DNA from: Arthrobacter sp. PGP41
GTDB taxonomy: Bacteria > Actinomycetota > Actinomycetes > Actinomycetales > Micrococcaceae
NCBI RefSeq assembly: GCF_002953935.1
Contig: NZ_CP026514.1
Span: 3,410,001-3,474,000 of the forward strand
Direction of reading: 5' to 3'
DNA: 64,000 bases
Positions within the stretch are counted from its first letter, which is position 1. Every line of letters begins with the position of its first letter. The notes under the pieces were generated by a model. It did no database searches. It had not been told where the DNA came from and saw only the letters and a list, made by a program, of their open reading frames with translations. A program made the translations under genes and the position numbers. Below, piece by piece: positions 1,728 through 19,160 of this stretch.

Positions 1728-1906
1728 CGCGCATGTTCCCCGGCGCCCCCGTTATCCCCGCGTCGACAAGGAATATGCGCGTCGAGAAGGAGTTTGCGCA
1801 CGAGGAACGGGATGCGGGCGCAACCAGCAGGGAAACCGTCGGGGGAGGCTGTGCAGACGCAGGTTCGGGGCTTCCCGAGACGCAGCGGCCGGGGCTAGCC
1901 TGAGCC

Positions 1907-3184
1907 ATGGTCACTCTGGGACCGGCAGGCCAGGGCATGGAGCTACAGGCGGGGCTCAGCACTGAGCTGCGCGCCTTGCCCGGCCTGCTGAAGGCGCTGG
2001 GCATGCTGGCCATGACACACCTGGAGGTGCAGCAGGCCACCGAGAACTGCCTGGCCGAGAACCCCATGCTGGAGCGGACGGACGGCCATCCGTGCCCCGG
2101 CTGCGGCCGCCATGTCCAGTCCGGCTCCTGTTACCGCTGCCGGGACCAGGGAGCCGCCCTGCACTACCAGGACGGGCCCGAGCCAGGCACTGACCCGTTC
2201 AGCACCCTTGAAGCAGATGCCGGGCTGGAAGTACGGCCGGACTCCCGCACTGCCCTCGAATACGTGATGGCGCACCTGACGCAGCGGGGAACCCTGGACG
2301 CGGAGCCGGACGAGATCGCGCAGTTGCACGGGCTGAAGACCGGCCAGGTGCAGGAAGCCCTCCGGGCCCTGCGCGCCGTAGGGCCGCCCGGCATCGGGGC
2401 ACCAAGCGTCACGGCCCTGCTCACCGCCCAGGCCGAGGCGCTGGTGGAGGCGGGCGAGGCGCCGGCCTGGCTCCCCCGCCTGGTCAGCGACCACCTGGGC
2501 GATCTTGCCGCGGGAAGCACTGCCGACGTCGGACGCGCCCTGCAGATCCCGGAAGTGCAGGTCCTGGAGGGACTCGCCGTCATCAAGGAACGGCTGAGGC
2601 CCTTCGCCGCCGCGGAGACCGGCCGGACGGACGCCGCCCCCACCGCCGACGTGTTCCTCTACCGCAGGCCCGACGGGTCCCTTGAGGTGGAGGTGCCCGG
2701 GAGCGCCTGGTTCGGCCTCAAGCTGGTGGAGCTGTGCGACGGCGTGAAAAGGGCTCCCGAGGCGAGGCAGTGGCTCGCCGAGCACGAACTGGCTGCCCAG
2801 CGGCACATCTACCAGATTGACCGCCGGGCCAGCGTCCTGCTGCGCATCACCGAATGCGCCGTGGCCCGGCAAAAAGATTTCCTGGACCACGGCGACGGGC
2901 ACCACCGGCCGCTCACCCGCACCGCAGTAGCGGAGGAAATCGGCGTGCACCCTTCCACCGTCAGCCGGGCTGTCCGCGGGAAGCGGCTGCGGCTGCCCTC
3001 CGGTGCGGTTGCCGACCTTTCCTGCCTGTTCGGCAAGGGCCTGGCCCCCAGGGCGGCACTCCAGGGGCTCCTCGCCGGCGGCCCGGAGCGCCTGTCCGAT
3101 GAAATGCTCCGCGCAGAACTGAGCCGGCAGGGCTTCAGCATCGCCCGCCGGACCGTCACCAAGTACCGCCACTCCCTCCAGTAG
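1907..3184 (+). CDS. rpoN: Divergent sigma-54 (RpoN-type) RNA polymerase sigma factor
   Basis: The product is 425 aa. Sigma-54 directs RNA polymerase to -24/-12 promoters and needs an AAA+ activator to open DNA. Residues 11-56 match region I, ending in ENPMLER (canonical ENPxLE), although the usual glutamine-rich TPQL stretch is lost. Residues 63-78 hold C63-x2-C66-x8-C75-x2-C78, a zinc-ribbon-like pair that normal RpoN lacks. Residues 336-359 form the helix-turn-helix (GVHPSTVSR; canonical GLHESTVSR). Residues 413-421 are the RpoN box ARRTVTKYR (canonical ARRTVAKYR), which reads the -24 element. The ATG at 1907 or the one at 1937 could start the protein. A sigma-54 promoter and its operon follow directly, and an activator gene closes the region. 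No -24/-12 site precedes this gene. The family is rare in Actinobacteria, which suggests transfer or an ancient diverged lineage. Confidence 0.9.
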   Translation: MVTLGPAGQGMELQAGLSTELRALPGLLKALGMLAMTHLEVQQATENCLAENPMLERTDGHPCPGCGRHVQSGSCYRCRDQGAALHYQDGPEPGTDPFSTLEADAGLEVRPDSRTALEYVMAHLTQRGTLDAEPDEIAQLHGLKTGQVQEALRALRAVGPPGIGAPSVTALLTAQAEALVEAGEAPAWLPRLVSDHLGDLAAGSTADVGRALQIPEVQVLEGLAVIKERLRPFAAAETGRTDAAPTADVFLYRRPDGSLEVEVPGSAWFGLKLVELCDGVKRAPEARQWLAEHELAAQRHIYQIDRRASVLLRITECAVARQKDFLDHGDGHHRPLTRTAVAEEIGVHPSTVSRAVRGKRLRLPSGAVADLSCLFGKGLAPRAALQGLLAGGPERLSDEMLRAELSRQGFSIARRTVTKYRHSLQ

Positions 3185-3196
3185 GCCCGGGCCGCC

Positions 3197-3271
3197 GCGA
3201 ACCCGCTTTCGCGCAAGCGAACCCGGCTTCGGCTCCGCGCTGCCGCGAATGAACCACCTGCCAGCGAACCG
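3197..3271. promoter_or_regulatory. Candidate upstream activating sequence for the sigma-54 activator
   Basis: GCGAACCCG occurs at 3197-3205 and again at 3217-3225, exactly 20 bp apart (about two helical turns). A third copy, GCGAACCG, is at 3264-3271. These lie 25-100 bp upstream of the -24/-12 element, where activator hexamers normally bind. The first two copies flank an imperfect GCTT...AAGC palindrome. Assigning them to the activator encoded at 10261-11655 is inference from position. Confidence 0.45.
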
Positions 3272-3296
3272 GCCCTCCCCGAAGCACCCATCCGCG

Positions 3297-3313
3297 TTGG
3301 CACGAATTGTGCA
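3297..3313 (+). promoter_or_regulatory. Sigma-54 -24/-12 promoter
   Basis: The sequence TTGGCACGAATTGTGCA has the invariant GG at 3299-3300 and GC at 3311-3312 with the required spacing. It matches TGGCACG-N4-TTGC at all positions but one (GTGC for TTGC). The start site would be near 3323, giving a leader of about 60 nt before the ATG at 3386. It sits in the only sizeable gap between the sigma-54 gene and the seven-gene operon. Confidence 0.85.
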
Positions 3314-3385
3314 GTAGGAGGGGTATGCGGTGTTCCGCGAGGGTGTCCCCCAAGGCACCCGCAAGACTCCGGGAAGGAAATACTC

Positions 3386-4105
3386 ATGCACGACATCGAC
3401 AGGGCCCTGTTCGAAGGCCAGGACGAAGGCACCTGGGGCGAGGTGATGGATGAAGAATCCGGCCTCTCCTATGAAGGCGAACAATCCCCGTTCCAGGCGG
3501 AAGAGTCCAATGAGGACAGCGCCGGCGAATTCTGGGGCGAGACCGACAGCCAGGAGATGGATGAACTGTCCCTGGCCGCTGAACTGCTGGCCGTCAGCGA
3601 CGAAGGCGAGCTGGACCAGTTCCTTGGCAGCCTGGCCAGGCGGGCCGTTTCAGCAGCACGCGACTTCGCCGGATCCGACGCCGGACGGGCCGTGGGCAAC
3701 ATCCTGAAGTCCGCGGCGCGGAAAGCACTTCCGCAGCTGGGCCAGGCCGTGGGCAACTACATTGTCCCCGGCGCCGGCGGACAGGCCGGACGCCAGGTGG
3801 GCAAGTGGCTTGGCAGCAGGTTCGAGACAGGGCTCCAGCTTGAAGGCCTCTCGCCGGAAGACCGCGACCTCGAGACCGCCCGGGCGTTTGTCCGCTTTGC
3901 CACCTCCACGGCCCAGCGCGCCGCGGCCATGCCCAAGAGCGTCCCTGGCCCCCTTGCAGCGCAAAAGGCCGCAACCGCCGCGGCCCGCCAGCACCTTCCG
4001 GGGCTGCTGAAGCGCCCCGGCCAGGCCGGCTCCCCTGCGAAACCTGCGAACAGCGGCCGCTGGGTCCGCCGGGGCAACAACATCGTGATCATCGGCGCCC
4101 GATAA
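3386..4105 (+). CDS. Unknown acidic/glycine-zipper protein A, first gene of the sigma-54 operon
   Basis: The product is 239 aa with no signal peptide. Residues 1-65 are very acidic and include YEGEQ. Next comes a helical block (ELLAVSDEGELDQFLGSL), then a Gly/Ala-rich stretch (about 105-150) with GxxxG spacing that could insert in or associate with membranes. An Ala-rich basic helix follows, and the tail is GRWVRRGNNIVIIGAR. The next gene is a clear paralog with the same order of blocks. The RBS is GGAAGG just upstream of the ATG. I have seen this layout only as unassigned proteins and know no function. A membrane-active effector or a scaffold are both possible. The gene lies directly behind the -24/-12 promoter, so sigma-54 control is the strongest statement available. 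Confidence 0.8.
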   Translation: MHDIDRALFEGQDEGTWGEVMDEESGLSYEGEQSPFQAEESNEDSAGEFWGETDSQEMDELSLAAELLAVSDEGELDQFLGSLARRAVSAARDFAGSDAGRAVGNILKSAARKALPQLGQAVGNYIVPGAGGQAGRQVGKWLGSRFETGLQLEGLSPEDRDLETARAFVRFATSTAQRAAAMPKSVPGPLAAQKAATAAARQHLPGLLKRPGQAGSPAKPANSGRWVRRGNNIVIIGAR

Positions 4106-4142
4106 CCCCACCCACAGAACAACCGACCCAAAGGATATTGAC

Positions 4143-4904
4143 ATGAGCACCAACTACTACGCAGGCGAGACTGAATCGGCTTTCCCCTGGGCGCAGGAGG
4201 AAGAGGACGAAGGCAGCTTCAGCGGTTACGAAGGCGAACAGGACAACGAGGAAAACCTGGAGTCCGAGCTGGCCATGGAGCTGCTCAGCATCACTTCGGA
4301 GGAGGAACTGGACCAGTTCCTCGGAAAGCTCGCCCGGAGCGTGGTGCGGAACGCCTCCAAGTTCATCAAATCACCCATCGGCAAGGCCCTGGGCGGTGCC
4401 CTGAAATCGGTGGCCAAGAAGGCGCTGCCCATCGTGGGAGGCGCAATCGGCTCCTTCGTTGCTCCCGGCGTCGGCACTGCCATTGGAAGCAAGCTCGGCT
4501 CCCTGGCCGGCGGGCTGCTCGAGGCCGAGGAGGCGGAGTCGATGGACGAAGCCGAGGCCGAGGAGGAGGCGGCCCGCCGCTACGTCCGGTTTGCCCGGGC
4601 CTCCTACCGCAACGCCGCACGGACCCCGGTGTCCGTGCCGCCGGCCGCGGCTGCCCGCGCCGCTGCCACCAGTGCGGCCCGGCGGTACGCCCCGTCCCTG
4701 CTGCGTTCCCGCCGCGCTGCCCGCCGCGGTTACCGCGGGGGAACCCGGATCTACGGCGACCAGTACGCCGGTGCAGTGTGGGGCGCCCCCGACGAAGGCT
4801 GGGACAGCCAGCCAGACGGCGGCTCGAACGGCAACTCCAACGGCGGCGCCGACGAAGGCCGGTGGATCCGGCGTGACGGACGCGTCATCCTGCTCGGCGT
4901 GTGA
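4143..4904 (+). CDS. Unknown acidic/glycine-zipper protein B, paralog of the preceding gene
   Basis: The product is 253 aa. It shares with protein A the acidic start with YEGEQ, the EEELDQFLGKLARS block, a KKALPIVGGAIGS glycine-zipper stretch and the tail GRWIRRDGRVILLGV. The glycine-zipper portion (about residues 95-125) is more hydrophobic than in A. A 40-residue Gly/Asn/Ser-rich linker precedes the tail and is absent from A. Start ATG at 4143 has AAAGGA 7 nt upstream and a 37-nt gap to the preceding stop, so it is cotranscribed. Tandem paralogs suggest a hetero-oligomer or two related substrates of one system. Function unknown. Confidence 0.8.
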   Translation: MSTNYYAGETESAFPWAQEEEDEGSFSGYEGEQDNEENLESELAMELLSITSEEELDQFLGKLARSVVRNASKFIKSPIGKALGGALKSVAKKALPIVGGAIGSFVAPGVGTAIGSKLGSLAGGLLEAEEAESMDEAEAEEEAARRYVRFARASYRNAARTPVSVPPAAAARAAATSAARRYAPSLLRSRRAARRGYRGGTRIYGDQYAGAVWGAPDEGWDSQPDGGSNGNSNGGADEGRWIRRDGRVILLGV

Positions 4905-4939
4905 CGGCCCAGGCGACGAGCAGAAGGGAGGCGAGCCGG

Positions 4940-6265
4940 ATGGACACAAAGACCCTTGGCACCAGCCTGATCGAGAGCGAAGCAACCGGCCTGCTGACCC
5001 GCCTTGACCAGGTTAAGCCGTTCGTCATGCACGAAACGATGGTCCTCGCCGCCGCCCTGCCCCGGGACGCCCAGCTGCTGATCGAACGGTTCCTCCACTC
5101 CGGACGCAACGACCTCCGCCGGCAGCTGGCATCCTTTCTGGACTGGCTGCACGATGAGGGCCGGTTCGCCACGGCCGCCGAGCAGCAGCACCGGTTCGTC
5201 CTCATCCGCCTGCAGTTCAACGTGGTCCTGGCCCAGTTCGATCTCTTCACCGAAGTGGTGACCCAGCGCAGCGAACACTCCACCGGCGTGTGGCTTTCGG
5301 GCCTGGACATCCTCGCGCAGGATGCGCTGCGGGTTGAAACGTCCGACGACGGCGACGCCAGGCTGGTGGTCTACCTCGCCAGGGGTGCGGGTGCTGCGAT
5401 CCGCCGGGCCAAAACCCGGCTCCCCGGGGGCAAGCCAAATCCCGTGGGGATCATCAGGCTTCCCCGGGAGCGGATGATCGGCAGCGGGATCGCCTCGTCA
5501 CTGGTCCATGAAGTGGGGCACCAAGGTGCCGCGCAGCTGGAACTGGTCCCCTCCCTGCGCGCCGAAATCGAGCGGCGCACCACCGGGAACCCGGGCGGGG
5601 TGTGGGAGGCATTCTCCCAGTGGGTCAGCGAGGTGGTGGCAGACCTGTGGTCCGTGGCCACGGTGGGCATCACATCCACAATCGGGCTGCTGGCCGTGGT
5701 CAGCCTCCCGCGCTATTTCGTTTTCCGCCCCAGCGGCACCGACCCGCACCCGATGCCGTACCTGCGGGTGCTGATCTCCGCCGCCATGGGAAACGCCCTC
5801 TACCCGCACCCCCAGTGGCTGGAACTCACCCGGGTCTGGAAGGCGATGTATCCGCTTGCCGGCCTTCCGGCCGAACACGCTGCCTGGATCCGAAACTGCG
5901 AAGCCCGGATCGGGGACTTCGTTGAGCTTCTGCTGGCCCACCCCGTGCCGCTGGCGGACGGCCGCGACCTCGGTTCCATCTTCCCCCTCGGCGAGCGCCA
6001 GCCCGAACAATTGCTCCGCCTCCACCAGGCGTGGGGCGGCGACTTCGGCGTCATGGCCCGCCAGCGGCCGGCCCTGGTCTTTGCCGTCCTGGGCCAGGCC
6101 AAGGCAGCCGGACGCATCACGGCAGAGGAGGAAAGCTCCCGGCTGTCCTCGCTGCTGACCGCCTGGGCGGTCCGGGGCAGCCTGGACGTCCTGGGCTCCC
6201 CCGCGCCTGTCAGGGGACACGCAACGCCCAACTTCACCACAACAGCACCAACAACAAGGAGATAG
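4940..6265 (+). CDS. HExxH zinc-metalloprotease-like protein
   Basis: The product is 441 aa from the ATG at 4940, which has GGGAGG 8 nt upstream. An in-frame GTG at 4901 would add 13 residues but overlaps the previous gene and lacks an RBS. Residues 190-194 are HEVGH, the zincin metal site, in a helix preceded by IASSLV. A probable third ligand, E231, lies in the helix SEVVADLW 37 residues later, as in gluzincins. No signal peptide is present, so it acts in the cytoplasm or is exported by another route. The C-terminal half is helical with no recognised domain. In this operon it could process the two glycine-zipper proteins; that is inference from position. No named peptidase family is assigned. 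Confidence 0.7.
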   Translation: MDTKTLGTSLIESEATGLLTRLDQVKPFVMHETMVLAAALPRDAQLLIERFLHSGRNDLRRQLASFLDWLHDEGRFATAAEQQHRFVLIRLQFNVVLAQFDLFTEVVTQRSEHSTGVWLSGLDILAQDALRVETSDDGDARLVVYLARGAGAAIRRAKTRLPGGKPNPVGIIRLPRERMIGSGIASSLVHEVGHQGAAQLELVPSLRAEIERRTTGNPGGVWEAFSQWVSEVVADLWSVATVGITSTIGLLAVVSLPRYFVFRPSGTDPHPMPYLRVLISAAMGNALYPHPQWLELTRVWKAMYPLAGLPAEHAAWIRNCEARIGDFVELLLAHPVPLADGRDLGSIFPLGERQPEQLLRLHQAWGGDFGVMARQRPALVFAVLGQAKAAGRITAEEESSRLSSLLTAWAVRGSLDVLGSPAPVRGHATPNFTTTAPTTRR

Positions 6266-6267
6266 CC

Positions 6268-7833
6268 ATGGATTTCACCCGACGGCCATCCGCTCCGGTC
6301 TATGCCGGACAGGAAGTGGCCTTCCGTTTCGAGCTCGAGGGCTGGGAAAAGCCGGGCGACTACGACTTCCAGATCATAGACGAACGGGGCCGGACTGTCC
6401 CGATGGGAGGGAGCAAGGGCGGCGTTGTCACCAAGCTCATGGGACCCGGCAAGGACTTCGAACCAACGGTCATGCTTTCTGATTCGGGCGAATACAGGGT
6501 GCGCGTCCGCTCCCATGTCCTCCGCGGCAAGCCGGCACGCTGGTCCGTTCTGGACACGATAAACGTCGAACCGCCGGAGTCGGCTCCCGTGCTCAAGGTC
6601 GCACTCCAAACGGACGCGGCGCCCAACAGCGGCCACAAAGACCTGTGGGGGTTTATAGGGGGCGTCGCCTCGAACCTCAAGTTCGGAAACTTCGCCCGCT
6701 TTGCAAAAGCCAAGGGTGCCAGCCTGGGGACCAAGCCGCCGTTCGGGTCCATGACGTACGACATCCTGCATGCGCTGTCCAAAGAGTTTGTTACCGAGGG
6801 TGCCCTGGGCAACATGTACCCGTCGTCGGGCAAGAAATCGGCCTGGGGTCCAGGAAAGCTTAGCGGCACGGCGATCCCTTTGTCGTACGTCACCGACCAA
6901 AGGAACGTGCCGTACAAGCCCTTCCCGACAGGCATCCCGCGCGGCCAGTACCCATTGGAGCTGGTGCCGTTCGTGGAGCTGATCTACGTGTACTGGCTGG
7001 AGGAAGCCATGCTGTTCCAGTCATTGAACCGCATCATTGCGCGCTTCCAGAACCGCCGTGCACCCGGGGGAAGGGATCCGCTCTCGCGGCTCGCCGTCAA
7101 CCCGCTCATGCCGCTGCGGGGACTCTTGTGGGGCCTCGCCGAGGCCGAGGACGAACGCCTCTCGCTGCGGCGCCGGGCCGCCGAGTATGAGTACCAGTAC
7201 GGACTGCAGCTGATCGGCCGCGCGGTTCCGCCGGCTGAGCTGCTGGTGGAACGGCGGACGCAATTCCTGGAGGCCTTCCACAGCCTGCTCAACGCCTGCC
7301 ACCACTATTACAAGGAGCTCAACGACAAGACCGTGGACGCGGACGCGTTTCCGCTGCTCAGCCACCTGCAGGAGCTGCACCTGGTGCTGGCCAAGGGCGC
7401 AAACAACCAGTTTGCCGACATGGCCCTCATAGCCCGCATTGAAACCATGGATGTGCAGTGGATGCTGGCCCAGCCGGAAATGCATCAGTTCCTGGGCGGG
7501 CCCACCATGGTCCCGTATGAAGAAGAGTGGATGGACCGGGTGGACACCATGAAATCCATGCAGGGGTGGTCCGACGTCAGCGTGACACACTTCTACGATC
7601 TGGCTGTCCACGGCGAGCAGCTCCTTTTGTCCGTCCGCCACGGACGCTGGAACGAATCCACCATGAAGAGCGATGACGCGAAGAACTGGGCCATCGCCTG
7701 GAAGTCGTCAGTCCAGCGCTACATCCACGCCTACCGGGCCGTCACCGGGGTGGACCTCAGCGAGCGGGTGGATACCACCATGCCGTCCACGCTGCTGCAG
7801 CGCCGGCTGGCCCAGAAGCTCGTCCGATACTGA
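6268..7833 (+). CDS. Unknown 521-aa protein of the sigma-54 operon
   Basis: The ATG at 6268 has AAGGAG 6 nt upstream and lies 2 nt after the preceding stop, so I take it as the start. A longer open frame upstream is only read-through of the previous gene. Residues 1-105 look like a beta-sandwich (short alternating strands; PVYAGQEVAFRFELEG... and SGEYRVRVRS), suggesting an Ig-like or C2-like domain. The remaining 400 residues are mixed helical, with many aromatic and His residues (CHHYYKEL, HLQELHLVL, THFYDLAVHGEQ). No transmembrane segment, Walker motif or catalytic signature is visible. I do not recognise the family. It is probably the largest structural or enzymatic component of the operon. 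Confidence 0.75.
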   Translation: MDFTRRPSAPVYAGQEVAFRFELEGWEKPGDYDFQIIDERGRTVPMGGSKGGVVTKLMGPGKDFEPTVMLSDSGEYRVRVRSHVLRGKPARWSVLDTINVEPPESAPVLKVALQTDAAPNSGHKDLWGFIGGVASNLKFGNFARFAKAKGASLGTKPPFGSMTYDILHALSKEFVTEGALGNMYPSSGKKSAWGPGKLSGTAIPLSYVTDQRNVPYKPFPTGIPRGQYPLELVPFVELIYVYWLEEAMLFQSLNRIIARFQNRRAPGGRDPLSRLAVNPLMPLRGLLWGLAEAEDERLSLRRRAAEYEYQYGLQLIGRAVPPAELLVERRTQFLEAFHSLLNACHHYYKELNDKTVDADAFPLLSHLQELHLVLAKGANNQFADMALIARIETMDVQWMLAQPEMHQFLGGPTMVPYEEEWMDRVDTMKSMQGWSDVSVTHFYDLAVHGEQLLLSVRHGRWNESTMKSDDAKNWAIAWKSSVQRYIHAYRAVTGVDLSERVDTTMPSTLLQRRLAQKLVRY

Positions 7834-7842
7834 GGGGCGGAG

Positions 7843-8910
7843 ATGTCCGCAGCATTCGGGAAGGCCGACGGCGGGGCGGACTTCACGTCCGCGCTCTTCC
7901 TGGGCCAGCACCATCCCAGCGCCGGGTTCCGTCCGTGGGCTGAATTCACCACGGGCGTTCCCGCGGCGCTGCGGGAACTGCCGGACGCGGAAAGGCTTGC
8001 GCGTGTAATCGCCGGTCAGCAGCAGGCCGGGTCCGGCCTGGTTGCCCGCTCGGCCCTGCACGGGATGATGGATGTGCTGCAGGCACTTCCCTGCCCCGGG
8101 GACCTGCTGCTGGTGGACGGGGGCGCCTACCCTCTGTCCCAGTGGGCCTGCCGGGCAGCGCAGTCCCGGGGCGTACGGGTGGTGACGTTTCCGCACTTCC
8201 GGCCGCCCGCCGTCGTGCCTGGAACCAGGACGTGGCTGGTGACCGACGGCTGGTGCCAGGGGTGCGGCCGTCCGGCGCCGCTCGCCGCGCTGCAGGCGCT
8301 GGCCGGGAAGACCGGCGGCCAGGTGATCGTGGACGATTCCCTGGGCTTCGGTGTCCTGGGGCGGCGGTCCGTGGAGGGCAGCTTCGGGGACGGAACGGGG
8401 ACGCTGCGGTGGGCAGGGTTGAAGCACGACGGCGTGGTGTGGCTTGCGTCGCTGGCGAAGGCGTACGGGACCCCCGTCACGGTCATCACCGGGGAGGGCG
8501 GGGCCATTAGCAGGCTGTCCCGGCTCGGCGGCAACCGCCTGCACAGCAGCCCGCCGTCGGCAGCAGACCTCGGCGCCGGCCTCAGTGCCCTCCGCGACAG
8601 CCGCATGCCCCGCCTGCGTGCCCGCCTGTTCCGGCTCACGCGGTGGCTGCGGCAGGCGTTGAACGATCTGGGACTGGCCCCGTTGGGGCTGCCGTTCCCC
8701 ATTGTGGGAACCCGCGTGGACTCGCTCCTGCTGGCACGGCGGTGGCGGAACGGCCTCGCGGCCCGGGGCGTGCAGGCCCTGGTGCAGCTGCCCCGCTGCC
8801 AGCCCGGCGCGCTGCTGTCCGCGGTGGTACGGGCGGACCACTCGCAGGCGGACCTTGACCGCCTGGTCCGGGGCCTCGCCCAGGTCACCCGGGACCGGCG
8901 GGCGGCGTGA
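7843..8910 (+). CDS. PLP-dependent fold-type I enzyme resembling alpha-oxoamine synthases
   Basis: The product is 355 aa. VIVDDSLGFGVLGRRS (161-176) corresponds to the D-E-A-H-x-x-G-x-x-G signature of 8-amino-7-oxononanoate synthase and 2-amino-3-ketobutyrate ligase. D164 is in the position of the PLP-nitrogen-binding Asp. SLAKAYG (204-210) supplies the Schiff-base lysine K206. Two features differ from the family: the usual E-A-H is D-S-L, and the chain is about 40 residues shorter at the N-terminus, where the family's substrate-binding strand lies. The substrate is therefore unclear, and a condensation with acyl-CoA should not be assumed. The gene starts 9 nt after the preceding stop with GGGGCGGAG as RBS, and overlaps the next gene by one base. 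Confidence 0.75.
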   Translation: MSAAFGKADGGADFTSALFLGQHHPSAGFRPWAEFTTGVPAALRELPDAERLARVIAGQQQAGSGLVARSALHGMMDVLQALPCPGDLLLVDGGAYPLSQWACRAAQSRGVRVVTFPHFRPPAVVPGTRTWLVTDGWCQGCGRPAPLAALQALAGKTGGQVIVDDSLGFGVLGRRSVEGSFGDGTGTLRWAGLKHDGVVWLASLAKAYGTPVTVITGEGGAISRLSRLGGNRLHSSPPSAADLGAGLSALRDSRMPRLRARLFRLTRWLRQALNDLGLAPLGLPFPIVGTRVDSLLLARRWRNGLAARGVQALVQLPRCQPGALLSAVVRADHSQADLDRLVRGLAQVTRDRRAA

Positions 8911-9704
8911 TGAAGCACCTGGTCATCGACTCGCACGTGCACGTAGGCACGGCCGGCGTACCCCTTGGGCCGGCCGATCCGGAAACGTCCTTTGCCCTGT
9001 GGCAGGCCCGGGCCGCCGCCGCCGGGATATTCGGGGCGGTGCTGATGGCGGCGCCGGTGCGGACGTATGCGGCGGCCAACCGCACAGTCGCGGAACTTGC
9101 CGGGCGCGATCCCGCCAGGTGGCTCTGGTACGCCTTTGTGAACCCGGCCACGGACCGCGGGAGGGTGGGCGCCGTGGTGGCTGCCGCCGTCGTCCGTCAT
9201 GCCTGCGGGATCAAGGTGCACTGGTCCGACGCCATGGCCACGGACGAGGTGGCCGACGCCGCGGAGCGCCACGGCATGCCCGTCCTGTTCGATTCCGGCG
9301 GGGATGTGCAGCGGGTGGCCTACCTGGCGGCACGCCACCCCGATGTGCCGTGGATTGTGCCGCACCTCTCCTCCTTCGCCGACGACTGGCGTGCCCAGAA
9401 GCGGCTGATCGATCTCCTGGTGCGTGCGCCCAACGTTTTCACCGATACATCCGGGGTGCGGTATTTCGACCTGCTGGAGGAAGCCGTTGCGCGGGCCGGC
9501 GCCCACAAGGTGCTGTTCGGCAGCGACGGGCCGTATCTCCATCCGGCCCCTGAGCTCGCCAAGATCTTCGCGCTTGGCCTGATGCCCGAAGACCGGGACC
9601 TTGTCCTGGGCGGCAACATCCTGCGGCTTACCGGTCCAGCCCGAAAGGCCGCCGGCGCCCGAAACCCCACCACGCACTCCAGGAGGAATGAAGCATGGCT
9701 ATGA
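8910..9704 (+). CDS. Amidohydrolase-2-type metal-dependent hydrolase
   Basis: The product is 264 aa from the ATG at 8910, which shares its A with the preceding TGA (translational coupling); GTG at 8907 is the alternative. IDSHVHVG (6-13) supplies the HxH metal pair of strand 1. IKVHW, then VLFDSGG, then a PHLSSFADDW strand and FGSDGPYLHP near the C-terminus follow the order of the amidohydrolase-related TIM barrel (the Asp of strand 8 in GSD). The length fits the family. Likely cytoplasmic hydrolysis or decarboxylation of a small molecule, perhaps the product of the PLP enzyme before it. The substrate is unknown. The last 10 bases overlap the next gene. Confidence 0.8.
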   Translation: MKHLVIDSHVHVGTAGVPLGPADPETSFALWQARAAAAGIFGAVLMAAPVRTYAAANRTVAELAGRDPARWLWYAFVNPATDRGRVGAVVAAAVVRHACGIKVHWSDAMATDEVADAAERHGMPVLFDSGGDVQRVAYLAARHPDVPWIVPHLSSFADDWRAQKRLIDLLVRAPNVFTDTSGVRYFDLLEEAVARAGAHKVLFGSDGPYLHPAPELAKIFALGLMPEDRDLVLGGNILRLTGPARKAAGARNPTTHSRRNEAWL

Positions 9705-10303
9705 CCACGTTGGGCAAGGGACCCGAAACCATCACCGATGCGGGCCTCGCCGAGATCAAGCCGGACAACACTGCGGCCATCCGGAAGGGACTGAACCAGC
9801 TGCGCGACTATGTAAAGCAGAGCAAAGCGGCGCGCAGCGGAACCGGTGCACCCCGGCAGGCCTGGATGCAGGGAAGCGAGCCGGAACGGAATTCAATATG
9901 GCTGGTCACGTACTCACCCTGGTCGGCGAAATCCGGCCCTCCCACCCATGTTCGCGTGTTCGCCCACCAGGTGGACCGCAGCGAACTGGTGAAGGGAAGT
10001 TCCCTGCCCGGCGTTGACCGCCTACTCCTGTCCCGCCGTGAGCTCCCGAAAGTGGAGCTGCCCAAGATGATCCCGTTTCCCCACCCCAAGAAAGCCGACC
10101 TGTTCGGCCTCACCGTGGAATCGTATGTGCGGGACGCCTTCGCGCAGGCCTACAAGCGCCCCCGGCAAAAGCCGCAGCGGCTGGGCCGCAAAGGCCCGGA
10201 CGTCCTGTGGCGCGAGCTCGAAGAACTGTTCCGCGAACTGGCGGAGGAGACGGGCGACAGTTACTGGCGCGAGGTGGCGGACGAGCTGTCGGCGGGTGTC
10301 TGA
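9695..10303 (+). CDS. Unknown 202-aa protein ending the sigma-54 operon
   Basis: A very strong AGGAGG lies upstream of the ATG at 9695, which overlaps the amidohydrolase gene by 10 nt. The N-terminal 60 residues are helical and Lys/Arg-rich. The middle has a hydrophobic strand (SIWLVTYSPWS) and a Pro/Lys-rich stretch. The C-terminus is a charged helix ([24 protein letters not shown]). There is no signal peptide and no known motif. Its 3' end overlaps the 3' end of the convergent activator gene by 43 bp. No function can be assigned. Confidence 0.7.
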   Translation: MAMTTLGKGPETITDAGLAEIKPDNTAAIRKGLNQLRDYVKQSKAARSGTGAPRQAWMQGSEPERNSIWLVTYSPWSAKSGPPTHVRVFAHQVDRSELVKGSSLPGVDRLLLSRRELPKVELPKMIPFPHPKKADLFGLTVESYVRDAFAQAYKRPRQKPQRLGRKGPDVLWRELEELFRELAEETGDSYWREVADELSAGV

Positions 10304-11655
10304 CACGCGCCGTCGGGGCCCGTTTTCCTGGCCTGCCGCTGCTGGATGGCCCGGTCAGTGAGGCCCAGCATGGCGGCGGCGGAGTGCACGTTTCCGCCGC
10401 TGCGTTCCACTGCCACGTCCACCGCCGCCTCCGCCGCACGTTCCTTGATGTCGCGCAGGCCCAGCCCGCGGTCCACGGCCCAGGCCACCGCTGCCCTGAA
10501 AGGATCGCCGCCTGCACGTGCTCCGGCGGCCGGCGCGGAATGCATGGAGACGGGCCGGTCCTCCCGGGGCAGGTCACCCGGAGTGATGGCGCCCGGACCC
10601 ACGTGGCGTGCGGCAATCCGGAAGGCCAGCTGGCGCAAGTCGCGGAGGTTGCCCGGGTAGGCCCTGCGCAGCAGCACGTCCTGGACCGAGGCGTCCACGT
10701 CCGGGTCCGCAGCTAAACCGCTGACCTCCCGGCAGAACCGGGCAAAGAGGGAGAGGATGTCTTCCACCCGTTCCCGCAGCGGCGGCATGGTGACCATCGA
10801 GGCGGCGATCCGGTGGTACAGGTCGGCGCGGAAGCTGCCGGCCGCCACTTCATCCTTGAGGTCCCGGTTGGTGGCACAGATGAGCCGGAACTTGCTGTTC
10901 AGCCACTTGTCGCCGCCGACGCGTTTATAGGTGCCCTCCTGGACCACGCGGAGCAGTGCGGGCTGCAGGTCAAGCGGCAGCTCCCCCACCTCGTCAAGGA
11001 AAAGGGACCCCTGGTCCGCTCCCGAGCACGCTCCGGTCCGGACACTCACGGCGCCTGTGAAGGCTCCGCGCTCGTGACCGAAAAGCTCGCTCCCCATCAG
11101 GGTTGGCACAATGGTGGTGCAGTCCACGGTCACCAGGTTGCCGCGCTGGTGGCTGACCGCGTGGGCCACCCGGGCCGCCAGCTCCTTGCCAGTCCCCGTT
11201 TCGCCCTGGATCAGGATGGGGCCCTGCCCGAACCGGGCCGCCACCACGAGGTCCCGGAGCGCGGACCGGAAGGCGGGGCTGTTGCCGGTCAGTTTTTCCC
11301 GGACCGCAACCGAATCGAGGACCGCTTCAACATCCTGGATCCGCTGCATCCACGCCGATACAGCTGGCACCTGCCCCTGCCACGCAATGCACTCCGCTGC
11401 GCCCGCATCCAGCACAGGCCAGGGCTTCAGCTTCCCGTTTGGAGGCCCGATGACCATCACCCGGCTCCGGCCATACTCGGCCGCCCCGAGGGCAGCCCTC
11501 AGGTCCTGGGAATCCGATACGGACAAGATGATGCCGGCCGTTGAGCCGCCGGACGGGGCATCGGATTCCGCCAGGGCCACCCCTCCTGCGCTGAGCGCGG
11601 CGATCGCCTCCCGGGCCCATAATTGCCGCCCTGTGAGATCGATCAGCCATGGCAT
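10261..11655 (-). CDS. Sigma-54-dependent AAA+ transcriptional activator (enhancer-binding protein)
   Basis: The product is 464 aa from the ATG at 11655, which has GAAGGGG 9 nt upstream. An in-frame ATG at 11712 adds 19 residues without a good RBS. Residues 1-120 are an unrecognised sensory domain, perhaps receiver-like but without a visible phospho-acceptor set. The AAA+ core has Walker A GETGTGKE (151-158), the sigma-54-contacting GAFTGA loop (197-202), Walker [11 protein letters not shown] (218-227) and CATNRDL. The C-terminus carries a Fis-type helix-turn-helix ([20 protein letters not shown]). All residues needed to remodel sigma-54 are intact, so it is the obvious activator of the 3297 promoter. 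It is convergent with that operon and overlaps its last gene by 43 bp. Confidence 0.92.
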
Positions 11656-11804
11656 AACACTGATCCCCTTCACATGAGGCACCCCAGGAACGAATGCAAA
11701 GACGCGAGACATATGATCATCCGTCGCGTTACGGGAGCGTTACAGTCCACGCTGCAGGCCGGGGAACGAGTCAGCTGACGGCGGTATCCATCCCGGGCAT
11801 GGAA

Positions 11805-15158: not shown

Positions 15159-18100
15159 CTACTTGAGGGTGAGGACGAGTTTGGGTGCGGCCGTGCTGCC
15201 GGCCTCCCTGGAGTTCAGGTCCAGGCCGTCGCTGCTGCTGGTGTCCATACCCAGGGAAAGCAGCTGGCCGAGCTCACCGTTCACTGCGGCGGCGTTCAGC
15301 GAAACGCTGTAGTTGGTGTTGGTCGTTGTCGGCCCGACGAGCGTGCCGATGGTGGTGCCGAGCGGCGGTTTGTTGCTGTATGTGATCCCGGTCTCACTCC
15401 AGTCGTCATTGCCGACCAGCTTGACGTTCTGCGTACCTTTTGACCCGCTCCGGGCACTGCGCAGTTGCAGTGTCGCACTCTCCAGCGTCCTGCCCGCATA
15501 CGCCGACAGGTCAAACTTCAGGTACGTGACCTCCACCGGGCTGCTGTCCACACCCAACGTGGTACTTGTGCCAAAGTTCGTCGTCGCTGTTCGGCTGGAC
15601 ACGTAGCTGTCAGCGATGGCCGTCAGCGTGACCGTCTCCGACGCGCCCCCGCCGGAGACGACGCTCCAGGAATGCGTCGCTGCTGTCCCGTCGGTGTTGC
15701 CGGCTGCATCGGTGGCCCAGACATCGAAAGTATGGGATCCGATCGACAACCCGGCATAGGTCTGCGGCGAGGTGCACGCCACGCGCGGTCCACCATCCAG
15801 GCTGCACTGGAACGTCGAATTCGCCTCACTCGAAGTAAAGGCAAAGGAGGCACTGGTCGACGTCGAAGACGCAGGCGGCCCCGACGTAATCGTCGTCTCC
15901 GGAGCCGTCGTATCACCACCACCCCCACCGCCGCCGCCGAGGGTGAGGACGAGTTTGGGTGCGGCCGTGCTGCCGGCGTCCCTGGAGTTCAGGTCCAGGC
16001 CGTCATTGCTGCTGGTGTCCATACCCAGGGAAAGCAGCTGGCCCAGCTCACCGTTCACTGCGGCGGCGTTCAGCGAAACGCTGTAGTTGGTGTTGGTCGT
16101 TGTCGGCCCGACGAGCGTGCCGACGCTGGCCCCGAGCGGCGGTTTGTTGCTGTACGTGATCCCGGTCTCACTCCAGTCGTCATTGCCGACCAGCTTGACG
16201 TTCTGCGAACCCGTTGACCCGTTCCCGGCACTGCGCAGCTGCAGCGTCGCACTCTCCAGCGTCCTGCCCGCATACGCCGACAGGTCAAACTTCAGGTACG
16301 TGACCTCCGCCGGGCTGTTGTCCACACCCAATATCGTGCTCGTGCCAAAGTTCGTATCCAGCAACCCCGTCCCGTTGGTGACGTAACTGTCAGCGGCCGC
16401 CGTCAGCGTGACCGTCTCCGACGCGCCCCCGCCGGAGACGACGCTCCAGGAATGCGTCGCTGCTGTCCCGTCGGTGTTGCCGGCTGCATCGGTGGCCCAG
16501 ACATCGAAAGTATGGGATCCGATCGACAACCCGGCATAGGTCTGCGGCGAGGTGCACGCCACGCGCGGTCCACCATCCAGGCTGCACTGGAACGTCGAAT
16601 TCGCCTCACTCGAAGTAAAGGCAAAGGAGGCACTGGTCGACGTCGAAGACGCAGGCGGCCCCGACGTAATCGTCGTCTCCGGAGCCGTCGTATCACCACC
16701 ACCCCCACCGCCGCCGCCGAGGGTGAGGACGAGTTTGGGTGCGGCCGTGCTGCCGGCGTCCCTGGAGTTCAGGTCCAGGCCGTCATTGCTGCTGGTGTCC
16801 ATACCCAGGGAAAGCAGCTGGCCCAGCTCACCGTTCACTGCGGCGGCGTTCAGCGACACGCTGTAGTTGGTGTTGGTCGCCGTCGGTCCGACGAGCGTGC
16901 CGATGGTGGTGCCGAGCGGCGGTTTGTTGTTGTACGTGATCCCGGTCTCACTCCAGCTGTCATTGCCGACCAGCTTGACGTTCTGCGAACCCGTTGACCC
17001 GTTCCCGGCACTGCGCAGCTGCAGCGTCGCACTCTCCAGCGTCCTGCCCGCATACGCCGACAGGTCAAACTTCAGGTACGTGACCTCCGCCGGGCTGTTG
17101 TCCACACCCAATATCGCGCTCGTGCCAAAGTTCGTATCCAGCAACCCCGTCCCGTTGGTGACGTAACTGTCAGCGATGGCCGTCAGCGTGACCGTCTCCG
17201 ACGCGCCCCCGCCGGAGACGACGCTCCAGGAATGCGTCGCTGCTGTCCCGTCGGTGTTGCCGGCTGCATCGGTGGCCCAGACATCGAAAGTATGGGATCC
17301 GATCGACAACCCGGCATAGGTCTGCGGCGAGGTGCACGCCACGCGCGGTCCACCATCCAGGCTGCACTGGAACGTCGAATTCGCCTCACTCGAAGTGAAG
17401 GCAAAGGAGGCACTGGTCGACGTCGAAGACGCAGGCGGCCCCGACGTAATCGTCGTCTCCGGAGCCGTCGTGTCGCCGGGCGGGGCGGTACCCGGCTCCC
17501 TCGATCCGCTGTCTGTCTGCATCCCGCCATGGACAGGGCGGAACTCCCACGAGTAGGAGCCATCAGCTTTAAGGCTCATCCTCAGATGGCCCCACGTGTC
17601 GCTGAATTTCTTCTGCACATAGGCCGGGTCGCTGAGGAAGGGCCGCAAATCGATACCGCCGGTGGACACCTGGAACTGCTGCATCCCGTCCGTGACGCAC
17701 TGGTCCGCGTTGTCCACCGGGCAGGTCCGCTCATAGTTGTGCTGTGAACCTGACAGGAGCAGCTTGACCCGGTTCGCCCAGAACATGTCGATCCAGGGCT
17801 TGGCCTGAGTGAAGCGGGTATGGATCGAGGTGTCCGATGTGAAGTACGGGTCGTGGTATACAACAGCCAGATGCTTCCCGGCCGCTTTCGCCGCCTTCAT
17901 ATCAGCGTCCATCTCCGCGGTCATGGCCTGTGCCCTCGTGGGGTTGTACAGCCACGTGGCCGTAGGAGCTGCCACAATGTGCCAGTTGCCCTTGTCAAAC
18001 GAGTACCATTCAAGGGCGTCCTGGAACCGGCCAAGAGTGGTGTTCGCTGCGCTTTTCGTCGTGGACACACATTCACCATTCATGAACCTGTCCACGTCAT

Positions 18101-19160
18101 CATTCACACCGGGATCCACGTCATGCCCCGGCCCGGCCGTCCAGAACGTCTTCGCTTTCACCCCACCCCATAGGGTGTCCCAAGCAACGAGGGCCGAACA
18201 GGTGCCCTGGTTGTACTGGAAGTCACCGATACCGATGAAGTTGTCCAGTGACCCGTCGTTCAGGCTCGCGGTGATGCTGGCAGCGTTCTGGCCCGATGCG
18301 GACGAGGTGGACGTGTTCCCTTCCGGGTTCATGTCACCTACAGCGGCGAACTCCCACGAGTCACCGGAGGGTGGAGGCGGGGAAACGACCGTGCCGGCCG
18401 CGGCGTATACCCGGACCCAGTCCACCCGCATTTCCCCAGCGCCGTCAGGGGTGGAGTCGGGGAACCAGTCCAGCTGGAGGGTCTGATGCATGGAACCCGG
18501 AGGCTGGTGCGACGCGGTGTTGTCCTGGAACCACTGGACTCCATCCACGTACCCAGTGATACCGGCCGGTGACCAGTCAACGGCGTAGTTGTGGAACTGG
18601 CTCACGTCGAGTGCCTTCGATGCGAACGTCTGCAAGTTGGAGCAGGAGTAGTGATGGAAGAACTGGATGACGTTCCAGTCACCCGTGGTTTCGGCGTAGT
18701 CAATTTCGCCGTCGCAGGGCCAGTTCTCCGAATCGGGCCACAGGATGGAGACCATGTGGTATTCGTTGTCGCCCGAGCCCGCGGCACGGACCTCCCAGCG
18801 GCCGTACTTCTGGTTGGCGAACTTGGCGCCCATGCCCGCGGTTGTGCCGTTGGGCGTCCCGTTCATGACCATCTTGGTGCCGTCCACGGTGACCTGGGCG
18901 GGTGAACGAAGGCCGTTGCCTGCATGCCCGGCGCTGTTGTAGACGTTCCATTTCAGCGGGTCGGGTGCACCCACATAGTTGAACTCGTCCCCGGCAACGA
19001 CGGACCCCCAGTTATGGGCTTCTGCCGCGGTAGTCCCGTCAGTTGAGAGTGCGGCAACCGCCCTAGGGTCACCACTGGCCCCGGAACCCAACAAAACAAA
19101 GGCGCCAACCGTTACCGCCGCGAGAAGTGACGCCACAAACGTTCGGGATTCAGTGATCAC
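15159..19160 (-). CDS. Secreted multidomain GH16 / metallophosphoesterase / triple Ig-CBM96-like protein
   Basis: The product is 1333 aa with a signal peptide (about 1-30). Residues 50-255 are a GH16 beta-glucanase-type domain with the catalytic E-x-D-x-x-E intact (E152, D154, E157 in GEIDYAET). Residues 267-555 resemble a secreted metallophosphoesterase: VGDMN, IGDFQYNQG, GHD, VVYHDPY and GSQHNYER hold the metal ligands. Three near-identical ~260-aa units follow. Each has an Ig-like module (DTTAPETTITSGPP...) and a DNRLRE/CBM96-like module (ADSYV...), joined by poly-Gly. A C-terminal DNRLRE module closes the protein. It probably binds and cuts an extracellular polysaccharide and releases phosphate, though the substrate is unproven. 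The gene stands alone between direct repeats. Confidence 0.85.
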   Translation of the reverse strand: MITESRTFVASLLAAVTVGAFVLLGSGASGDPRAVAALSTDGTTAAEAHNWGSVVAGDEFNYVGAPDPLKWNVYNSAGHAGNGLRSPAQVTVDGTKMVMNGTPNGTTAGMGAKFANQKYGRWEVRAAGSGDNEYHMVSILWPDSENWPCDGEIDYAETTGDWNVIQFFHHYSCSNLQTFASKALDVSQFHNYAVDWSPAGITGYVDGVQWFQDNTASHQPPGSMHQTLQLDWFPDSTPDGAGEMRVDWVRVYAAAGTVVSPPPPSGDSWEFAAVGDMNPEGNTSTSSASGQNAASITASLNDGSLDNFIGIGDFQYNQGTCSALVAWDTLWGGVKAKTFWTAGPGHDVDPGVNDDVDRFMNGECVSTTKSAANTTLGRFQDALEWYSFDKGNWHIVAAPTATWLYNPTRAQAMTAEMDADMKAAKAAGKHLAVVYHDPYFTSDTSIHTRFTQAKPWIDMFWANRVKLLLSGSQHNYERTCPVDNADQCVTDGMQQFQVSTGGIDLRPFLSDPAYVQKKFSDTWGHLRMSLKADGSYSWEFRPVHGGMQTDSGSREPGTAPPGDTTAPETTITSGPPASSTSTSASFAFTSSEANSTFQCSLDGGPRVACTSPQTYAGLSIGSHTFDVWATDAAGNTDGTAATHSWSVVSGGGASETVTLTAIADSYVTNGTGLLDTNFGTSAILGVDNSPAEVTYLKFDLSAYAGRTLESATLQLRSAGNGSTGSQNVKLVGNDSWSETGITYNNKPPLGTTIGTLVGPTATNTNYSVSLNAAAVNGELGQLLSLGMDTSSNDGLDLNSRDAGSTAAPKLVLTLGGGGGGGGDTTAPETTITSGPPASSTSTSASFAFTSSEANSTFQCSLDGGPRVACTSPQTYAGLSIGSHTFDVWATDAAGNTDGTAATHSWSVVSGGGASETVTLTAAADSYVTNGTGLLDTNFGTSTILGVDNSPAEVTYLKFDLSAYAGRTLESATLQLRSAGNGSTGSQNVKLVGNDDWSETGITYSNKPPLGASVGTLVGPTTTNTNYSVSLNAAAVNGELGQLLSLGMDTSSNDGLDLNSRDAGSTAAPKLVLTLGGGGGGGGDTTAPETTITSGPPASSTSTSASFAFTSSEANSTFQCSLDGGPRVACTSPQTYAGLSIGSHTFDVWATDAAGNTDGTAATHSWSVVSGGGASETVTLTAIADSYVSSRTATTNFGTSTTLGVDSSPVEVTYLKFDLSAYAGRTLESATLQLRSARSGSKGTQNVKLVGNDDWSETGITYSNKPPLGTTIGTLVGPTTTNTNYSVSLNAAAVNGELGQLLSLGMDTSSSDGLDLNSREAGSTAAPKLVLTLK
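15167..17480. repeat. Three tandem ~780-bp repeats inside the GH16 gene
   Basis: Units at 15167-15940 (774 bp), 15941-16720 (780 bp) and 16721-17480 encode the Ig-like plus CBM96-like modules. The second and third differ at only a handful of bases; the first (C-terminal) has diverged more in one 60-bp stretch and lost 6 bp. Such similarity allows unit gain or loss by recombination, and short-read assemblies may miscount it. Confidence 0.95.

Follow-up and report, generated by a model that had tools for sequence, protein, structure and literature searches.

A putative single-promoter sigma-54 circuit around a seven-gene operon in Arthrobacter sp. PGP41

How could a sigma-54 factor operate in an actinomycete, a bacterium from a group treated as having no such system? 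The question is raised by a nine-gene cassette of Arthrobacter sp. PGP41 (RefSeq assembly GCF_002953935.1, contig NZ_CP026514.1), located in a 64-kb stretch (positions 3,410,001-3,474,000) of a complete 4.27-Mb one-contig genome. This stretch is called the window, and coordinates are given within it unless stated otherwise. Among named organisms, this soil-type bacterium is closest to Arthrobacter and Pseudarthrobacter. The cassette comprises a gene for an RpoN-like sigma-54 factor (rpoN, 1907-3184), seven further genes (g2 to g8, 3386-10303) and a convergent gene for a sigma-54-dependent activator (10261-11655). Surveys treat sigma-54 as absent from Actinobacteria: the available text of Francke et al. 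2011 states that Actinobacteria lack the sigma-54 system (PMC3162934), and that of a 2025 survey, which reported RpoN in 4/173, concludes that Actinomycetota effectively lack functional RpoN (PMC12316311). From gene content, gene order, motifs, conservation and co-occurrence, we consider it very likely that the cassette is a complete single-promoter sigma-54 circuit built around the seven-gene operon, probably enabling the operon to be switched on in a host without any other sigma-54.

Components of the cassette

An earlier note on this DNA had described an rpoN-like gene with the ENPMLE motif, the sigma-54 helix-turn-helix (HTH) and the RpoN box, a near-perfect -24/-12 site at 3297-3313, seven genes with almost no gaps and a convergent AAA+ activator with GAFTGA, and had read them as an autonomous switch on one operon. 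The genes were borne out by domain matches, motifs and spacing (g2 to g8 are 2-37 bp apart or overlap), and the -24/-12 site was placed at 3298-3313, with a -12 element reading GTGCA instead of TTGCA. The closed circuit was supported by the rest of the genome, in which rpoN is the sole PF04552 match and, among seven PF00158 matches, the cassette activator (E = 1.5e-53) alone is strong, the runner-up reaching 2.3e-8. This leaves one sigma-54 factor and one strong bacterial enhancer-binding protein (bEBP), and no housekeeping sigma-54 network from which the components could have co-evolved away, as the note had supposed.

The 425-residue RpoN, encoded on the plus strand, matched the Pfam families Sigma54_DBD (E = 2.4e-26, 92.8 bits against a cut-off of 22.8) and Sigma54_CBD, the core-binding domain (E = 7.3e-16, 58.9 bits against 22.9), and its matches in PDB were solved sigma-54 chains. 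ENPMLE is present, residues 9-62 align with region I of a solved sigma-54, and the RpoN box, ARRTVTKYR, aligns with the box of the solved protein; both the box and the HTH are retained. The identity of RpoN to the window copy was 65-74% in six other loci of the genus, and the proportions of nonsynonymous and synonymous differences among five loci (pN 0.08-0.22 vs pS 0.32-0.56) indicate purifying selection on the gene. Directly before its ATG lies a -10-like element, TAGCCT (1896-1901, plus strand), predicted to belong to a leaderless housekeeping-type promoter; GGGCTA(G/A)CCTG precedes the start codon in five of seven loci, L121 and L123 deviating.

Immediately after region I, RpoN carries a four-cysteine (Cys4) motif, CPGCGRHVQSGSCYRC, predicted to bind zinc. 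A strict pattern for it was matched in 65 of 70 cassette-type sequences, a set made up of the window copy, those of ten loci and the top-ranking protein matches, labelled by rank and mostly of unseen genomic context. The pattern C-x2-C...C-x(1-3)-C occurred in 24 of 55 further, lower-ranked protein matches, a few of them named Ktedonobacterales or Ktedonobacteraceae, while neither the 53 sequences from genome contigs of other phyla nor the 15 from other Actinomycetota had a Cys4. The Chloroflexota proteins (Ktedonobacterales/Ktedonobacteraceae) thus resemble the cassette RpoN in the position of the motif after region I; the named ones are 30-32% identical to it, and with an arbitrary root they are not placed as its sister. 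An RpoN phylogeny, one of the checks proposed in the earlier note, was built from 190 sequences of RpoN-type proteins only, with a midpoint root and no outgroup. A branch with an SH-aLRT support of 87 set off the 70 cassette-type sequences (99 when two more sequences were included, 72 in all), and 13 RpoN proteins of other Actinomycetota classes fell apart from this clade. With its rooting arbitrary and several of its branches long, the tree points to no particular donor of the cassette RpoN.

Control sequences were compared across the genus, for which 131 genomes were sampled, seven of them (including that of the window) holding an intact locus. The -24/-12 block TGGCACGAATTGTGCAGTA (3298-3316, plus strand; predicted start near 3324) was invariant over 19 consecutive columns in 7/7 loci, compared with 1/56 ungapped upstream columns, in an alignment anchored on the exact core string, which none of the seven intact loci lacked. 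The site itself, TGGCACGAATTGTGCA (3298-3313), has one mismatch to TGGCACN5TTGCW, with the GG at 3299-3300 and the GC at 3311-3312 conserved at sigma-54 spacing. Taken alone, a match of this kind does not exceed what chance would give (23 matches with up to two mismatches in the window, 32.7 expected); it is the conservation across loci that makes the site more than chance. Between rpoN and this promoter lies a predicted enhancer (upstream activating sequence) of two palindromes starting 20 bp apart, GCGAACCCGCTTTCGC-N4-GCGAACCCGGCTTCGG (3197-3232, plus strand). The tandem GCGAA-N6-TTCGC plus GCGAA-N6-TTCG(G/C) precedes the -24 GG by 69-121 bp in 7/7 loci, and at up to two mismatches it is unique in the genome, the reverse-strand match being the same site.

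RpoN might instead serve other promoters as well, the cassette being part of a wider sigma-54 regulon, and there are indeed three exact TGGCACGN5TGCA sites in the genome. However, the two besides that of the cassette fall inside open reading frames and have no GCGAA palindrome within 1.5 kb, allowing up to one mismatch reveals no excess of sites (109, where the reversed pattern gives 120), and the genome has a single strong bEBP. A wider regulon is therefore improbable, and a single promoter remains the preferred reading.

Downstream of the promoter, a predicted 5′ leader of g2 (3324-3385, plus strand) was folded into two hairpins, from single-sequence folds of seven loci and an alignment of three. 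In several loci the second hairpin keeps its pairing despite changed bases (compensating changes), and the conserved leader may protect or regulate the operon mRNA.

The activator, encoded on the minus strand (10261-11655), consists of a degenerate N-terminal domain, an AAA+ domain (PF00158, E = 7.6e-53) in which Walker A and B, GAFTGA and the R-finger motif are all present, and a C-terminal HTH that scored below the cut-off of the Fis-type family PF02954 (E = 0.036), with a helix pattern conserved in relatives. As its alignments mostly begin at M20, 10261-11655 is the likely extent. Activators whose HTH reads T-x-R-A go with a GCGAA site upstream of the operon (10/10 loci), and those reading S-V-R-T lack one (3/3). 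Among four loci, pN was 0.04-0.16 and pS 0.27-0.54, and by this measure the activator is under purifying selection. Before the gene lies a GTAAC-N6-GTAAC direct repeat (11728-11743, minus strand), present in 6/6 loci and matched once in 400 kb of the genome on both strands. It matches the GlnR box GTnAC-n6-GTnAC given in the available text of one paper (PMC10704036), and it is spaced like the predicted MtrA site GTAACCN5GTAACC in that of another (PMC12323332). A nitrogen- or envelope-linked regulator may read the repeat.

The cassette shares with canonical systems of RpoN and an NtrC-type bEBP the domains of RpoN, a -24/-12 promoter with palindromes in tandem upstream of it and a GAFTGA-bearing AAA+ activator; it departs from them in linking a single sigma factor to a single activator and a single promoter within one locus, in a class nearly devoid of sigma-54 otherwise, and in the Cys4 after region I.

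Conservation and distribution in Actinomycetota

Within the genus, rpoN was matched in 8/131 genomes, seven times as a full-length gene and once as a remnant, and 123 genomes had no match; g5 was found in seven genomes, the same that carry a full-length rpoN. The search for shared gene order elsewhere, also proposed in the earlier note, found the nine-gene order identical in all six genus loci that span the cassette, window included; the seventh locus, L122 of genome G855, ends at a contig edge. The genes upstream of the five other spanning cassettes map to genome positions 3,401,484-3,409,089 of PGP41, just left of the cassette, so that the left flank is common to 6/6 loci. On the other side, a gene for 315-353 amino acids follows the activator in four of the six and is absent there in the window and L125.

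The remnant, in genome G877 (L124:14606-14809), comprises about 70 rpoN codons followed by a broken frame, and no other cassette gene was detected at E <= 0.01 within 19.9 kb. A homologue (49-57%) of the gene downstream of the activator lies about 0.6 kb off on the opposite side of the remnant, and the GTAAC-N6-GTAAC repeat is present in reversed orientation; by the flipped repeat and the displaced homologue, the site is rearranged. Within the genus, then, the pattern looks like inheritance at a single site with loss here and there, not like jumping. Among the scanned genes neighbouring the cassette in the window (the flanks of other loci were not so scanned), no mobile-element family was matched, and no tRNA was found in the window.

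In the class sample of 394 genomes, strong sigma-54 matches (E <= 1e-20) were obtained in three, and g5 (E <= 1e-80) in the same three. Four other genomes gave weak sigma-54 matches, of which the sole one over the cut-off (G769, 2.6e-4) is dissimilar to the cassette RpoN, and two others gave weak g5 matches (9.5e-4). The phylum sample of 396 genomes yielded 15 strong sigma-54 matches (L074-L088), all labelled as outside the class; 13 of them entered the tree. The expectation of the earlier note that sigma-54 is absent or very rare in Actinobacteria thus holds as to rarity in the class (3/394) and fails as to absence from the phylum (15/396). In another family of the window's order (G050, locus L070), rpoN and the activator are divergent from homologues of g2 to g4, and the -24/-12 site matches 9/10 positions. 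In a second order, g5 was found in 4/345 genomes, three of which have sigma-54 within the cassette; among 76 examined of the 341 g5-negative genomes no convincing sigma-54 was found, only three weak fragments, one of them marginally over the cut-off. In these second-order cassettes (L102, L140, L141), rpoN lies between g4 and g2 and a -24/-12 site precedes each gene group, which suggests self-amplification; their activators differ in the recognition helix (3/3), and the GCGAA palindrome was not found in the stretches scanned.

Further afield, the rpoN, g4 and g5 proteins of Rhodococcus NPDC047139, and likewise those of Nocardia NPDC050793, are encoded on contigs of equal length and are thus likely to come from one contig each. 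Citricoccus sp. SGAir0253 carries a 72% g4 homologue, for which reason its RpoN may belong to the cassette type; it is one of the cases set aside by the 2025 survey in the available part of its text (PMC12316311). Literature searches found no paper describing the cassette.

Weighing the circuit and its relatives in Proteobacteria

Relatives of the operon were found on megaplasmids of Paraburkholderia phymatum, Ensifer adhaerens and Rhizobium sp. CCGE532, where they are unannotated. All three loci hold homologues of g2/g3, g4 and g5 and a convergent activator (43-46% identity); a g7 homologue is present in the Paraburkholderia and Ensifer loci and a g6 homologue in those of Ensifer and Rhizobium. 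They differ from the cassette in their other cargo-like genes and in that no rpoN was found in the fetched loci (about 29 kb each; within about 14 kb). The -24/-12 sites of Ensifer (TGGCACGGAGCTTGCA) and Rhizobium (TGGCACGGAGATTGCG) match 10/10 consensus positions, and GCGAA-N6-TTCG occurs upstream of the operon in 3/3 loci, accounting for 1/1, 2/3 and 1/2 of its occurrences per locus (about 28.9 kb each). By this recurrence, the operon core, the activator and the control sites are regarded as an old module shared with Proteobacteria. The three proteobacterial hosts presumably use their chromosomal rpoN, so that the housekeeping sigma-54 would serve the module there. The actinomycete versions seen are linked to their own RpoN, with one exception (G1132). 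Since the proteobacterial relatives of operon and activator lack a linked sigma gene, it is likely that in hosts devoid of sigma-54 the operon brings its own. The recurrence in Proteobacteria and other actinobacterial families also agrees with the earlier description of the cassette as horizontally movable, whereas within the genus the left flank shared by 6/6 loci and the single decayed remnant speak against movement.

The predicted sequence of events is as follows. The rpoN gene would be transcribed from its housekeeping-type, leaderless promoter, and RpoN would load the RNA polymerase of the host at 3298-3316. A signal from the host would turn on or release the activator gene, perhaps by way of a regulator of the GlnR/MtrA type that binds the GTAAC repeats. 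Hexamers of the activator at 3197-3232 would then use GAFTGA to contact the polymerase and ATP to melt the promoter, so that the operon is predicted to be switched on by the RpoN and activator pair of the cassette alone.

Several observations weigh against a working and self-sufficient circuit. Region I of RpoN, although recognisable, scored below the Pfam cut-off (E = 2.9e-4, 21.1 bits against 23.8), and the whole protein (155 bits) falls far below the NCBIfam equivalog cut-off (277). In G855, g5 is in two pieces on another contig. G1132, of the second order, has g5 with no sigma-54 detected, in an assembly of 670 contigs with 6% contamination. The activators of that order have GSFTGA in place of GAFTGA. 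Relatives of g4 and g5 occur in Kribbella, Prescottella, Paractinoplanes and several Rhodococcus, in which rpoN was not checkable, the rpoN protein list being the best 120 of 1947 matches. The Paraburkholderia -24/-12 site is weak (7/10 positions). Finally, the co-occurrence of sigma-54 and g5 is in part physical linkage and shared descent.

The low scores of region I and of the whole protein would also be expected of a relic, an RpoN that has decayed or been put to another use while the operon is transcribed from an ordinary sigma-70-type promoter, and the conclusion of the 2025 survey, in its available text (PMC12316311), points the same way. We consider this unlikely, because both rpoN and the activator bear the marks of purifying selection, the -24/-12 block is invariant in 7/7 loci, the RpoN box and HTH are kept, and the truly decayed copy in G877 looks quite different. 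The Citricoccus case, with its g4 homologue, counts on the same side. The conserved cassette contradicts, as far as sequence can tell, the conclusion that Actinomycetota effectively lack functional RpoN, as worded in the available part of that survey (PMC12316311). Contamination or an assembly artefact, for which only the fragmented and partly contaminated G1132 could speak, is hardly credible given a complete one-contig genome, a left flank shared with genomes of the same genus and seven genus genomes with a full-length rpoN.

Surveys, as far as their available texts go, treat sigma-54 as absent from Actinobacteria (PMC3162934, PMC12316311). A conserved single-promoter circuit maintained there by selection would show that a whole class of transcription can be acquired as part of one operon. 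The cassette makes testable the use of sigma-54 by an actinobacterial RNA polymerase and the evolution of a sigma factor towards one promoter, and it would provide an orthogonal switch ready for use in high-GC Gram-positive bacteria.

Operon genes and neighbouring features

All seven operon genes lie on the plus strand. The first, g2 (3386-4105, 239 amino acids), encodes a protein with an acidic N-terminus, a Gly-rich amphipathic middle and a basic W-V-R-R-G C-terminus, without any Pfam match. By cross-matches it is a paralogue of g3 (4143-4904, 253 amino acids), which has a similar architecture and a weak glycine-zipper match (PF13488, E = 6.5e-4, below the cut-off). The g4 product (4940-6265, 441 amino acids) is a predicted zinc metallopeptidase with conserved HExGH and E-x2-AD motifs; H190, E191, G193, H194, E231, A234 and D235 were invariant in an alignment of 41 sequences, and fold searches gave no match. 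The g5 product (6268-7833, 521 amino acids) combines a beta-sandwich N-terminal domain with a conserved helical C-terminal domain of unmatched fold. An alpha-oxoamine-synthase-like, pyridoxal phosphate-dependent enzyme is encoded by g6 (7843-8910; PF00155, E = 9.8e-4, just below the cut-off; BioF/Kbl-type NCBIfam, E = 6e-13, far below the cut-off), and an amidohydrolase of the Amidohydro_2 family by g7 (8907-9704; PF04909, E = 8.8e-18). The last gene, g8 (9695-10303, 202 amino acids), gave a partial weak match to Tox-REase-9 (PF15650, E = 1e-4 over 28 residues, below the cut-off), and its counterpart in L013 matched the same family at E = 0.0099.

Across relatives, the constant core of the operon is g2/g3, g4 and g5, accompanied by cargo-like genes within or next to the operon: an amidase in L141, peptidoglycan-binding and GIY-YIG domains in L072, and glucosaminidase plus DUF2272 with a peptidoglycan-binding domain in L073, the counterpart in L071 having no family match. 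In the window the last place is taken by g8, with its partial weak toxin-nuclease match. This exchangeable cargo, together with two Gly-rich amphipathic proteins resembling the Cdz pair, hints that the operon is possibly an envelope or contact-active system, a reading we hold only tentatively. The glycine-zipper bacteriocin Cdz of Caulobacter, as described in the available text (PMC5380434), is alike in outline in having two related Gly-zipper-like proteins encoded side by side. The likeness is a resemblance only, as the Cdz proteins have 84-86 amino acids against 239 and 253 for g2 and g3, and, unlike Cdz in that text (PMC5380434), the seven operon genes include no type I secretion Pfam family.

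The family matches of g6 and g7 would fit another function, the making of a small-molecule signal or cofactor with the Gly-rich proteins as carriers. This appears doubtful, because a tblastn scan of L102, L140 and L141, where g2/g3, g4 and g5 remain, detected homologues of neither g6 nor g7, and because the domains encoded by the extra genes of relatives are of other kinds: peptidoglycan amidase, glucosaminidase, peptidoglycan-binding or GIY-YIG. Returning to the envelope or contact-active reading, a broader picture is conceivable, though it falls short of being probable. The module would be an old one under sigma-54 control that crosses phyla, accompanied in host classes lacking sigma-54 by an RpoN of the Cys4 type devoted to a single promoter. 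What it drives would be a so far unrecognised system acting at the envelope or by contact, whose cargo, peptidoglycan-acting or nuclease, can be exchanged. In that case the cassette would amount to an orthogonal transcription system of natural origin with a single promoter, and its sigma-54 would be the first one at work in the class Actinomycetes.

Two neighbouring genes of the window were also recorded. Directly upstream of the cassette lies an AbiEi-like antitoxin-type gene (753-1727; PF13338, 25.1 bits against a cut-off of 25), with no tblastn match in the six other genus loci. Beyond the activator, 15159-19160 encodes a protein of 1333 amino acids that matched glycosyl hydrolase 16 and contains three CBM96 modules.

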